A stretch of DNA of 64,000 bases from Natrinema ejinorense (GTDB lineage: Archaea; Halobacteriota; Halobacteria; Halobacteriales; Natrialbaceae), in contig NZ_NXNI01000001.1 of NCBI RefSeq assembly GCF_002494345.1, positions 1,116,001 to 1,180,000 of the forward strand, written 5' to 3'. Position 1 is the first letter of the stretch, and every line of letters begins with the position of its first letter. Of the stretch, positions 25,683 to 29,781 are shown one piece after another. The notes beneath the pieces were generated by a model that had not been told where the DNA came from, searched no databases, and was given only the letters and a program-made list of their open reading frames with translations. The translations under genes were made by a program, and so were the position numbers.

Positions 25683-27197
25683 TCACGACCACTGCGCAAC
25701 CGGCTCGCCGCTCGTCGACCGGTCGACGTACTCGGTTTGCATCTCGAAGACGGCCTCGTCGAAGTCCAGCCCTGCCTCGAGTCGGTCGCGGACACGCTCT
25801 AGCTTCCACTGGCTCGGCGTCACCCGATCGGTCCACCGTGCCTCGAGCGGTGCGAGATAGTCCTCGATCGTGTCCGCGGGAACGCCCTGCTCGCGGAGGC
25901 CGCGCCGAGCGAATCCGAACAGTTCGTCGTAGATCACGGCCGAGTCAGTCGTTCGGTCGCCGTCGACGGTAACCCACGCGAGGTCGGCGTCGAGTCCGTT
26001 TTCGACGGCGTCGTAGAAGCTCCGTTCGGCGACATCTCGATCGAGGGTCGCGAGCGGATGACCGACCGCACACAGGCCGTGGACGAGTCCGGCGACCAGA
26101 CACTGGAGGCCGACGTTTTCGACGATCGTGGGCTGGGTGGGGAGCGGGCGATATTCGATGCGAATGGACCACCGATCGCCCTGCTCGACCGGCTGCCCCC
26201 CGACAACGGTGCGGAGCCACCGCCAGTACGTTCCTCGCTTGTGATTGAGCTCCCAGAACAGGTCCGGAAACGTCTCGCGGTCGCCGTCGCCGACCCACTC
26301 CTGGAGGAAGGGGGCACACGTCGGATCGGCGCGGAGTCGGTCGATCGTCGCTGCCGTTCGGCGTATTTTCTCGGGAAAGCGGACCTTCTCCCATGCCCCG
26401 TTGATCGACTGCTCGAACACCGGAATCCGGAGTTCGTGATACGTCTCCTCGAGCAAGCGACCGGGATCGTCGATGTCGTACAGATCCGGCGGCAACAGCG
26501 GCGAGTTCGTCGCCAACGCGAGGACCGGGCCGAGCGTCCCCACGGCGGTGTTGTGATACCGCGAGAACTCCTCGACGTCGGGTATCTGGACGTGTGGCTG
26601 GATCGAGCTCGTCAGTGACTCGAAGAGGATCGACGGGAACCGCCGTTCGACGCCCGGCACCGAGAGGGTGACCGATCCCCCGGTTCGTGCCAGCACGTCG
26701 TTGTCGATCGCACAGTATCGCGGCGACGGCGTCATGTTCTCGGCGATCGTCATCCCCTCGCTCTCGTCGACGGCCGCCAGATACGCGTGGCTCCCGTTCG
26801 ACGGCGGAATCGTCCACATCGCATCCAGTACGATCGCTCCCCCCGCCCGGTCGGCCGCCTGCTGTGCGTTCCGGTAGTCCCGCCGGAGCGCCGCTGCCCC
26901 CGCAGCGATACCGTCCCCGTCGAACCGCGTCGGCTCGGTGTTGAACTCGACGTTGTGTACCCCGAGTTCCTTGTCACAGTGGCCGTCGAAGACGTCCTCG
27001 GGCACGCGAGCGAGCCGTCCGTCCGCATCGACCGCGTAGGCCTCGAGTTCGATTCCGAGGCCGAAACTCGGGCTGTCGAGTCGCCCCGCCTGAAGGGCCT
27101 CGATGAGACGATCGGCCTGCTCGTCGACGCGCCGATCGAACTCGCGTCGCGTGGCGTCCTCGAGCGATCGCGTAACGAGGTCGATGAACTCCGCCAT
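25683..27197 (-). CDS. GCS2-type glutamate-cysteine ligase-like protein (long form)
   Basis: Protein of 504 residues resembling carboxylate-amine ligases of the GCS2/COG2170 group. It has the opening GLGIELEAYAVD, an acidic metal-binding motif in VHNVEFNTEP, SRYHNTAVGT, and the IRIEYRPLPTQPTIVENVGL block typical of gamma-glutamylcysteine synthetase-like enzymes. Haloarchaea make gamma-glutamylcysteine with a shorter GshA. This longer relative may ligate glutamate to another amine, or be a second such enzyme. The C-terminal 100 residues (from ARRGLREQGVP) are helical and lack a known motif. It stands alone and runs toward the lipoprotein gene. Confidence 0.65.
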   Translation of the reverse strand: MAEFIDLVTRSLEDATRREFDRRVDEQADRLIEALQAGRLDSPSFGLGIELEAYAVDADGRLARVPEDVFDGHCDKELGVHNVEFNTEPTRFDGDGIAAGAAALRRDYRNAQQAADRAGGAIVLDAMWTIPPSNGSHAYLAAVDESEGMTIAENMTPSPRYCAIDNDVLARTGGSVTLSVPGVERRFPSILFESLTSSIQPHVQIPDVEEFSRYHNTAVGTLGPVLALATNSPLLPPDLYDIDDPGRLLEETYHELRIPVFEQSINGAWEKVRFPEKIRRTAATIDRLRADPTCAPFLQEWVGDGDRETFPDLFWELNHKRGTYWRWLRTVVGGQPVEQGDRWSIRIEYRPLPTQPTIVENVGLQCLVAGLVHGLCAVGHPLATLDRDVAERSFYDAVENGLDADLAWVTVDGDRTTDSAVIYDELFGFARRGLREQGVPADTIEDYLAPLEARWTDRVTPSQWKLERVRDRLEAGLDFDEAVFEMQTEYVDRSTSGEPVAQWS

Positions 27198-27280
27198 TAC
27201 CGAACGAAGCAGTTCCAGTCGCTTAGAGCTACGGTTCCGAGCGTGACGCTCGGGGCCGAATTGGATCGCGAGTCACCCCG

Positions 27281-27391
27281 TTCGACGCACTCTACCTCGT
27301 CGAATCGAACGGTGGGGCTATCGTCTCGAGCGACGACACGGACGAGAATACGACACCTCGTCTCGACCTGACGACAGGAACTGCGGAGTGA
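27281..27391 (+). pseudogene. Remnant of the 3' end of a vapC-like PIN toxin gene
   Basis: In frame, these bases encode about 36 residues (FDALYLVESNGG, then SSDDTDENTTPRLDLTT) ending in a TGA. They align with the C-terminus of the intact vapC at 28104-28214, including the two PIN-domain aspartate regions. No upstream part of the gene or start is present. The similarity continues past the stop through the intergenic spacer to the first five codons of rfcL, so this is part of a direct repeat and not an independent gene. Confidence 0.8.
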
Positions 27392-27446
27392 CGCTCCGCA
27401 ACCACAACGCAGCTCGCACCAACCACTGTCCAATGACCGACTGGAC
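27281..27446 (+). repeat. Left copy of direct repeat flanking vapBC
   Basis: A 166-base segment about 89 percent identical to 28104-28271. It covers the vapC 3' end, the intergenic CAACCACTGTCCA block and a copy of the rfcL start (ATGACCGACTGGAC at 27433). The copy of the rfcL start runs out of homology after five codons and reaches a stop at 27482. Confidence 0.85.
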
Positions 27447-27608
27447 CGACAAGTCGGGAAGATATGATATCGATTCGATGTGCTGAGATCGTCGAAGACG
27501 AATCGTTGTGTGGCCGTGGATGCGGAGACGAATTTCGACCGGCAGGCACAAATGGGAATTTCGCTATATCGGGGAACACTTTTGTTTTCTCCCACCGTCT
27601 GCCAAGAC

Positions 27609-27839
27609 ATGTCCGACATAGCGCTGGACGACCGTGGTCGTCTCACGCTCCCAAAGGAGGTCCGAGAGCGATATGGAGACCGATATCACGTCGTTCAGCT
27701 TCCCGACGGGGTCAAATTGGTTCCGGTTGCCGACGACCCGCTCGAGGCACTCAGGGACGAATTCGCGGACATCGAAAAGTCGGCGGACGAACTTCGTGAA
27801 GAAGTTCGTGACGCAGCGCTCGACGAGGCCGGACGATAG
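27609..27839 (+). CDS. vapB: VapB-type antitoxin, AbrB/SpoVT fold
   Basis: Antitoxin of 76 residues. The N-terminal swapped-hairpin DNA-binding domain of the AbrB class spans about 1-48 (LDDRGRLTLPKEVRERYG, then VVQLPDGVKLVPVADD). A C-terminal helical tail (ALRDEFADIEKSADELREEV) would neutralise the toxin and occupy its active site. The ATG at 27609 gives the standard N-terminus. The TAG is followed directly by the toxin ATG without a gap. Such pairs usually repress their own promoter; an AT-rich stretch lies at about 27550-27600. Confidence 0.88.
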   Translation: MSDIALDDRGRLTLPKEVRERYGDRYHVVQLPDGVKLVPVADDPLEALRDEFADIEKSADELREEVRDAALDEAGR

Positions 27840-28214
27840 ATGTATGCAGAAACCGATTTTCTCCTCGCGCTTATCAAAGACGAAGACTGGCTCGGAGACG
27901 CCGCCGAGTCGGTGTACCGAGAACACCGAGATGAGTTATGGACGTCGCAGTTCACGCTCATCGAACTCCTGATGGTCGCCTACCGCGAGGAACGCGATAC
28001 CGAACGCGTCGTGTCGAACGCCGCCACCCTCGTCGAGGTACGCGGTGACGTGGAGACAGTCGTTACGGCGGCGACGTACGTTGAAGACCACGGGTTCACG
28101 CCATTTGACGCGCTCCACCTCGTCGAATCGAACGGCGATACCATCGTCTCGAGCGACGACGCGTACGAGAATACGACACCTCGCCTCGATCTGACGACAG
28201 TAACTGAGGAGTGA
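27840..28214 (+). CDS. vapC: VapC-type PIN domain toxin (endoribonuclease)
   Basis: PIN-domain ribonuclease of 124 residues, predicted to cleave RNA when free of VapB. Acidic residues expected in the active site are visible: D6 in AETDFLLAL, the Glu in TLIELLMVAY, the Asp in FTPFDALHLVE, and the Asp pair in SSDDAYEN. It starts on the base after the vapB stop, so the two form one operon. Its 3' end and the following spacer are duplicated at 27281-27446. Confidence 0.9.
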   Translation: MYAETDFLLALIKDEDWLGDAAESVYREHRDELWTSQFTLIELLMVAYREERDTERVVSNAATLVEVRGDVETVVTAATYVEDHGFTPFDALHLVESNGDTIVSSDDAYENTTPRLDLTTVTEE

Positions 28215-28271
28215 CGCTCCGCAACCACTAAACGCGACTCGCACCAACCACTGTCCAATGACCGACTGGAC
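28104..28271 (+). repeat. Right copy of direct repeat flanking vapBC
   Basis: This 168-base segment overlaps the end of vapC, the 43-base spacer and the first five codons of rfcL. The left copy is at 27281-27446. About sixteen substitutions and one two-base gap separate the copies, so the duplication is not very recent. Confidence 0.85.
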
Positions 28272-29781
28272 GGAGACGTACCGCCCGACGACCCTGTCGG
28301 AGGTACGCGGGAACAACAAGGCCCGCGACCAACTCGAGGAGTGGGCCGAGAGCTGGGACGACCACCGGAAGTCGGTGATCGTCCACGGCAGCCCCGGCGT
28401 CGGGAAGACCTCCGCCGCACACGCGCTGGCCAACGACATGGGCTGGCCGGTGATGGAACTCAATGCCAGCGACAGCCGAGGGGCCGATGTCATCGAGCGG
28501 ATCGCGGGGGAAGCCGCCAAGAGCGGGACGCTCACCGGCGGCGAGTCGGGTCGGCGGCTGGTCATCCTCGACGAGGCGGACAACTTCCACGGCAACGCCG
28601 ACTACGGCGGCTCGCGGGAGGTTACCCGCGTCGTCAAGGACGCCAACCAGCCGATCGTCCTCGTGGCAAACGAGTTCTACGACATGAGCCAATCGCTGCG
28701 CAACTCCTGTGAGACGATCGAGTTCCGCGACGTTTCGAAGCGCTCGATCGTCCCCGTGTTGCGGGACATCTGCCGCCGCGAGGGTGTCGACTTCGAGGAG
28801 GAAGCCCTCGAGAAGATCGCCGAGTCGACGAGCGGCGACCTTCGGTCGGCGGTCAACGACCTGCAGGCGGTCGCCGAGGAGACCGAGCGGTTGACCGTCG
28901 AGGACGTGGTGACGAGCGAGCGCGATACGACCGAGGGGATCTTCGACTTCCTCGACGAACTCATCAAGGAGAAAGACGCCGAGGGCGCGCTGCGAGCCTC
29001 CTACGACGTCGACGAGACGCCAGACGACCTGCTCAACTGGATCGAGGACAACGTCCCGAAGGACTACGAGGGGGCCGAACTGGCCGATGCCTACGGGTTC
29101 CTCTCGAACGCCGACCGGTGGCTGGGCCGGGTTCGAGCCACGCAGGACTACTCCTACTGGCGATACGCGACCGACAACATGACCGCCGGCGTCGCCGCCT
29201 CGAGACGCGGCGACAAGGGCGGCTGGACCCGCTATGGCCCGCCGAGCTACTGGTCGAAACTCGGCCGGACCAAGGGGACCCGTAACACCCGCGATTCGAT
29301 CGCCGAACGTATCGCGGAACGGGAGGGTGCGAGCGTCGCCACCGCTCGCCGGGAGATTCTCCCGTTCCTCTCGGCGATGACCCACCACTGCAAGAACCGC
29401 GACCTGACCGTCCGCATGGCAGCAGCCTACGATCTCGACGAGGCCGATGTCTCGTTCGTCACCGGAAGCGGGAAAGACACCAACAAGGTCGCGTCGATCG
29501 TCGAGGACGCCGACGAGCTGAAAACCACGGAAGCGGTCGAGCACTCGGGCAACGCCTTCTTCACGCCGGACGACTCGCGTTCGGACGCCGACGAGACGAC
29601 CGACGGGGAGCCAAACGGCGACGACGAAGACGGCGACCAGAACGAGCAACGAACGCTTACGGTCCCGGAAGACGACGACTCAGAACGATCAGCCACGGCG
29701 AGTGACCGATCGGCGTCCGACGATTCGGCGACGGCCGACGAACCGGCCGACGATCAGTCGGGATTGAGTGACTTCATGTAG
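28258..29781 (+). CDS. rfcL: Replication factor C large subunit
   Basis: Clamp-loader large subunit that, with RfcS, opens the PCNA ring at primer termini. The protein has 507 residues. The AAA+ domain (about 1-230) carries Walker A GSPGVGKT (44-51), Walker B LVILDEAD (102-108) and sensor-region SGDLRSAVNDLQ. A helical collar follows (to about 400). The C-terminal hundred residues are very acidic, and the protein ends in QSGLSDFM, a PCNA-interacting (PIP) motif. The ATG lies within a sequence duplicated 825 bases upstream. Confidence 0.97.
   Translation: MTDWTETYRPTTLSEVRGNNKARDQLEEWAESWDDHRKSVIVHGSPGVGKTSAAHALANDMGWPVMELNASDSRGADVIERIAGEAAKSGTLTGGESGRRLVILDEADNFHGNADYGGSREVTRVVKDANQPIVLVANEFYDMSQSLRNSCETIEFRDVSKRSIVPVLRDICRREGVDFEEEALEKIAESTSGDLRSAVNDLQAVAEETERLTVEDVVTSERDTTEGIFDFLDELIKEKDAEGALRASYDVDETPDDLLNWIEDNVPKDYEGAELADAYGFLSNADRWLGRVRATQDYSYWRYATDNMTAGVAASRRGDKGGWTRYGPPSYWSKLGRTKGTRNTRDSIAERIAEREGASVATARREILPFLSAMTHHCKNRDLTVRMAAAYDLDEADVSFVTGSGKDTNKVASIVEDADELKTTEAVEHSGNAFFTPDDSRSDADETTDGEPNGDDEDGDQNEQRTLTVPEDDDSERSATASDRSASDDSATADEPADDQSGLSDFM

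Follow-up and report, generated by a model that had tools for sequence, protein, structure and literature searches.

We propose that the 5' end of rfcL (about nucleotides +1 to +22), which encodes the large subunit of replication factor C, is probably an attachment site for integrative elements of haloarchaea, and that in Natrinema ejinorense a vapBC cassette was inserted there at an older junction. Our comparison of 112 rfcL loci, which is based on sequences, suggests an integration site instead of a local duplication. Across these loci, the extra copies of the rfcL start have a constant edge at +22, the vapBC cassettes and recombinase-encoding elements have a common layout of arm-like sites, and cassettes have moved across genera with the left breakpoint inside the core.

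We analyzed a stretch of 64,000 nucleotides from N. ejinorense (the window); coordinates are positions within it. The window most likely contains an older vapC-rfcL junction with a second vapBC cassette inserted into its rfcL core, because of the shared edge, the cross-genus cassettes, and trees in which rfcL follows the genera and vapBC does not. Integration of a second cassette at a pre-existing vapC-rfcL junction was one of two explanations given in an earlier, sequence-only reading of this DNA. It is supported by the use of the same point in many genera and with other cargo, and the insertion point can be sharpened to the first 22 nucleotides of rfcL.

The repeat around vapBC in Natrinema ejinorense

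The window contains a pair of direct repeats, at 27273-27454 and 28096-28279, which are 88-90% identical with one 2-bp gap. The first block (27273-27405 and 28096-28228) is 133 nucleotides at 88% identity; the second block, past the gap (27406-27454 and 28231-28279), is 49 nucleotides at 90% identity. As a single alignment, the repeat is 88.3% identical over 179 columns. The top ungapped score was 93, as compared to 10.5 or less in 50 shuffles. Alignment and shuffling thus confirm the direct repeat around vapBC that the sequence-only reading had described. The right edge of the repeat is at rfcL nucleotide +22. The left copy contains codons 87-124 of vapC with the stop codon, a spacer, and nucleotides 1-22 of rfcL. 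The earlier reading had correctly recognized a vapC end and an rfcL start in this copy, but their lengths need correction: the vapC end has 38 codons plus the stop, not 36 codons, and the rfcL start has not five codons but 22 nucleotides (27433-27454), or seven codons plus one base. Between the copies lie a 154-bp upstream region, vapB, and most of vapC.

The native left flank of the site is a divergent gene (25683..27197, minus strand). It appears to be glutamate-cysteine ligase-like from reading its sequence, and it had no Pfam or NCBIfam match. All of the other features are on the plus strand. The older vapC remnant (27275..27391) is 82% identical to the intact VapC by tblastn. It is followed by the left copy of the rfcL promoter and leader (27392..27432), which has decayed and has lost the TA of CCACTAAACGCG; we identified it from an alignment with 41 other rfcL leaders and from a three-way alignment. 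Next is the left copy of rfcL nucleotides 1-22 (27433..27454), an attL-like core whose 3' half departs from rfcL as in other insertions. The left end of the cassette and the region upstream of vapB (27455..27608) are homologous to those in vapBC cassettes of other genera and families, and they include an AT-rich, promoter-like stretch near 27574-27589. Just 11 bp past the core is an arm-like direct repeat, GATATC-gattc-GATGTG (27466..27482), which has partly decayed relative to the consensus of its relatives (GATGTA-N5-GATGTA). We also considered a micro-ORF across the joint (MTDWTEKSGKYDVDSMY) as a leader peptide, but it is more simply explained as the rfcL start read into the arm sites.

Directly before vapC is a putative vapB (27609..27839), which encodes an AbrB-like antitoxin of 76 amino acids. 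This ORF has no Pfam match, only a weak AbrB-type match that is below threshold, but it is conserved and it abuts vapC in all intact units. vapC (27840..28214) encodes a PIN-domain toxin of 124 amino acids (PF01850, E = 2.8e-07, above the cut-off). Together they are a putative VapBC type II toxin-antitoxin pair. The right copy of the rfcL promoter and leader (28215..28257), which was identified by the leader alignment and the three-way alignment, is presumably the working promoter of rfcL. The right copy of the core (28258..28279; attR-like) was defined by comparing cores across genomes, and it is the start of rfcL itself (28258..29781; NF003228, E = 3e-271). The sequence TCCGCAACCACTAAACGCG before rfcL is kept across several families and resembles the rfcL core promoter.

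The rfcL start across haloarchaea

We surveyed the rfcL loci of 112 genomes from the family. Intact vapBC genes are directly upstream of rfcL in 49 of the 112; at the remaining loci we found tails of vapC, remnants of vapB, other genes, or nothing at all. Of the 49 genomes with vapBC, 31 (from 15 genera) also have a second rfcL leader (the promoter and the first 22 nucleotides) to the left of vapBC. The right edge of these left copies is at rfcL +22, with a few detected ends at +16 to +23. The +22 edge is not confined to the family: it is also found in Salinigranum salinum and Halorubrum lipolyticum, and Halobonum has a decayed form. In these organisms, the distance from the joint to vapB is 138-158 bp, as within the family.

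The sequence-only reading had suggested that a comparison across haloarchaea would find sites with zero, one, or two vapBC units, and we found all three. At short (empty) sites in relatives, the left neighbor and rfcL are 160-190 bp apart. In the genus, the final codons of vapC persist at several short sites, which implies that such sites are often scars. Eight genomes have a leftover vap remnant along with an intact unit and a left leader (G000, G027, G124, G131, G005, G107, G108, and G077). The remnant is always on the left, which would be expected if each new cassette enters beside rfcL.

The survey also turned up some unusual loci. In G079, an rfcL leader with 22 nucleotides of rfcL and a vapBC-type left end lies near 9972 on contig 6 (L304). 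Since rfcL itself is on another contig, this suggests that the site was rearranged or that a contig break falls there. G024 has two equal-scoring rfcL loci on two contigs (C1 and C4), which is a duplication or an assembly artefact. Upstream of rfcL in G008, G010, G023, and G126 is a second, more divergent type of vapB (72-80%), which is joined to a normal vapC or (in G010) has no vapC; this hints at exchange between vapB and vapC. Close relatives of vapBC (79-88% VapC identity) in Haloferax, Halogranum, and others are encoded away from rfcL. No tRNA genes that might be attachment sites were found in 15 such loci of ~8 kb each (L124, L127, L129, L130, L132, L133, L135, L139, L141, L142, L144, L146-L148, and L155).

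Cargo other than vapBC is found at the same edge of rfcL. In G085, a 2-kb insert contains a GH16 protein, and the duplicated part is rfcL nucleotides 1-23 only. G075 and G022 have a histidine-kinase gene between the two copies. (One type of histidine-kinase gene is directly upstream of rfcL in G075, G083, G084, and G022. Also, G075 and G022 share the left end past +22 (AACCATAAT..), as a second type of cassette at the same point, without the 6-mer repeat discussed below.) G011 combines a left copy of the type found in its own genus with a right copy of a foreign type. By searching for rfcL leaders, we also identified three genomes with copies at 13-31 kb upstream of rfcL. A 13.9-kb element in G092, a 13.3-kb element in G028, and a ~29-kb provirus in G109 each lie between the native leader with its 22 nucleotides and a second 22-nucleotide copy at rfcL. 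All three encode a tyrosine recombinase (Phage_integrase-like) near the rfcL end, with a small ORF adjoining. We ran Pfam and PHROGs on the recombinases of G092 and G109: the first matches PF00589 (E = 8.5e-29), with a weak match to PF02899 below the cut-off, and the second matches PF00589 only. Because the ATPase of the G109 provirus matches His2, HHPV-3, and HHPV-4, this provirus is pleolipovirus-like. Thus, attL/attR-type flanks with a constant core edge are found across genera, families, and types of cargo.

The left ends of the vapBC cassettes and of the recombinase-encoding elements have the same layout: past the core there are 11 bp and then two copies of a 6-mer, which are separated by 5 bp. 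The 6-mer is GATGTA in vapBC cassettes and in the G109 provirus, TCATGA in G092, ACATGA/TCATGA in G028, CACACA/TACACA in G085, TGTGTA in Salinigranum, and CGTGTA in Halorubrum. Of all the placements tried on 20 non-redundant left ends, a start of 11 and a spacing of 11 was the best, with a mean identity of 0.57 (background 0.257, standard deviation 0.059; best other spacing 0.38), although only about six of the motifs are independent, since the vapBC left ends share descent. The layout is absent from G075, G022, and some decayed vapBC left ends. The right ends of G092, G028, and G085 mirror the left layout (6-5-6-4-ATG). We found no arm sites at the right ends of vapBC cassettes, which have the rfcL promoter there instead. 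To judge by its sequence, the 11-6-5-6 repeat resembles the arm sites of integrases.

The vapBC cassettes do not encode a recombinase; they encode only VapB and VapC. Because they lack a recombinase and right-hand arm sites, they are not complete elements as they stand. This would fit an alternative that we consider unlikely, which is that the cassette formed once and then spread solely by the host's homologous recombination, with the rfcL leader and rfcL as the arms and with no recombinase acting on vapBC. Both flanks of the cassette are rfcL sequence that is conserved across the family, and a single founding event would also yield the constant +22 edge among vapBC cassettes. But one founding vapBC event does not explain why this edge recurs with other types of cargo, whose arm motifs are different.

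Movement of the cassette and the history of the window

In the rfcL tree (from +23 on), all genera are kept together, with 17 changes, which is the minimum. The vapC tree has 26 changes, and the genera are not kept together. A single Natrinema clade is rejected by the vapBC data (p-AU 4e-61), and a grouping of G107, G108, G017, and G005, which was picked after the trees were seen, is rejected by the rfcL data (p-AU 2e-11).

Three of these genomes, a Natribaculum (G107) and two Natrinema (G017 and G005), have cassettes that are 96-100% identical per 50 bp over ~830 bp. The shared tract runs from inside the left core to about +50. Outside it, the identity is ~30-70% to the left and 78-94% further into rfcL. 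The left leaders are mutually unlike, while the right leaders are nearly the same, which implies that the leader in the left copy belongs to the host and that the right copy came with the cassette. The left switch between Natribaculum and Natrinema occurs within ~10 bp (+7 to +16), beside unlike sequence. For spread by homologous exchange alone, this is a short distance. Also, at +20 of the core, the left copy has A and rfcL has C in 10 genomes, and the reverse holds in one; such a bias would be expected if the element contributed the 3' part of the left core. The window is among these cases (left ...CGACAAGT, right ...GGAGACGT).

The other explanation in the sequence-only reading was a tandem duplication in situ, in which a unit of vapBC and the rfcL 5' end was copied and the first copy decayed. 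Indeed, the window and G027, G124, and G131 each have a pair of tandem units of which the left unit has decayed. And the left and right leaders within one genome are often nearly alike, as would be expected from either a tandem duplication or homologous spread. But local duplication is hard to reconcile with cassettes that are nearly identical in two genera despite the different native leaders in front of them, with the incompatible histories of vapBC and rfcL, or with cargo other than vapBC at the same joint. We now think that tandem duplication is quite improbable. We did not find that both of the window's copies trace to one local lineage: the histories of the cassette and of rfcL conflict across the family. 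This conflict pertains to the family, and the window's own donor could be from the same species.

Under integration, the cassette of ~825 bp would have an attachment end with the arm-like sites at its left, then vapB and vapC, and then an extra rfcL promoter with the rfcL start. On insertion into the core, the promoter and first codons of the host would end up to the left of the cassette (attL), and rfcL would be joined to the promoter and start from the cassette (attR). Because the cassette supplies a promoter and a start, the essential rfcL gene would stay whole. In the window, the cassette would have entered the core of a junction with an older vapC-rfcL unit, which then decayed to a vapC tail. 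We infer that the cassette has a circular form and that its insertions were the work of a tyrosine recombinase supplied in trans. In many genomes, the leaders are more alike than cross-genus transfer predicts, so there must also be a role for homologous recombination or for donors of the same species; later spread and loss via the leader by homologous recombination are likely, in addition to integration.

A genome from the same species (G061) has a single junction and no vapBC. Its junction is of the left type in the vapC tail and of the right type from the promoter on, and its last 65 bp are identical to the right copy in the window. According to the sequence-only reading, relatives that carry the left repeat without vapBC, in another position, would argue against local duplication. 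G061 does have the remnant with a single junction, but it sits at the same position, so G061 alone does not refute a local origin. Either G061 represents the site before the second cassette's insertion, in which case the cassette came from the same species, or the cassette was lost by recombination between the repeats. The single copy, with its mix of types and its 65 identical bp, fits both equally well, and we see these as evenly balanced. If G061 reflects a loss, then the exchange lay upstream of the core, which would imply homologous recombination and not integrase-mediated excision.

A more specific version of our proposal is tentative, and we suspect that it is somewhat more apt to be wrong than right: the vapBC unit, at ~825 bp, may be a minimal mobile cassette that is non-autonomous and depends on the recombinases of pleolipoviruses and related elements for insertion in trans. 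It would bring along a promoter to replace that of an essential replication gene, and it could accumulate in tandem at rfcL, where addiction to the toxin would then protect the occupied site.

Searches for attP and comparison with known systems

We did not find an attP with the rfcL core in the virus, plasmid, or viral-contig collections that we searched. With the rfcL leader as the query, no phage record matched, and the one plasmid record was itself rfcL. The promoter 19-mer had no viral match. Patterns for a 16-mer of the core matched 51, 30, and 39 viral stretches. None of the first set (51) had a context like the start of rfcL, and in the sets of 30 and 39, one had a correctly placed ATG, without an rfcL-like flank. 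The recombinase of G092 had no relative in the viral contigs and no match at E of 1e-40 in the window's genome, and the search with the recombinase of G109 found only distant phage records. In the literature, we found no report that links rfcL with integration or with vapBC, and none of rfcL as an archaeal attB.

If our proposal is correct, then rfcL is likely a protein-coding attB in an essential and conserved archaeal gene, and it is used by both proviruses and tiny toxin-antitoxin cassettes. This would account for the presence of vapBC beside rfcL in nearly half of the genomes in the family and for the conflict between the trees of these neighbors. It would also be a case of a toxin-antitoxin pair that moves as a site-specific cassette without its own recombinase. 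The predicted att design (arm-5-arm-4-core-11-arm-5-arm) is concrete enough to be tested in model haloarchaea and to be used to find more elements.

Satellites and integron-like cassettes are non-autonomous elements that depend on integrases. The vapBC cassettes would be similar in having small cargo between att-like repeats, in lacking their own recombinase, and in their tandem accretion at one site. They differ in that the cargo at the rfcL site is vapBC in most cases.

SXT integrates at the 5' end of prfC and restores the gene. Elements of the pTN3 type integrate at the 5' halves of tRNAs (PMC8371274). Similarly, an element at rfcL would give the interrupted gene a new promoter and 5' sequence. 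Unlike these systems, the target is rfcL, and most of the occupants are ~825-bp vapBC cassettes without a recombinase. Some other archaeal attB sites are in protein-coding genes, such as HMG-CoA reductase for BJ1 (PMC8371274, section 19). We liken rfcL to these sites; it is absent from the list in that review.

The SNJ2-type integrases of pleolipoviruses are a family with a Phage_integrase domain and an N-terminal SAM-like domain, and they are known only from Halobacteria. The SNJ2-type tyrosine recombinase (Wang et al. 2018, as cited in PMC8371274) uses a 13-bp core at the 3' end of a tRNA. The elements at rfcL are similar in that they are from Halobacteria and encode a Phage_integrase protein with a small accessory ORF, and one of them is pleolipovirus-like. 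They differ from the SNJ2 type, as it is described in that account, in both the length of the core (~22 bp) and its location (the 5' end of a protein-coding gene).
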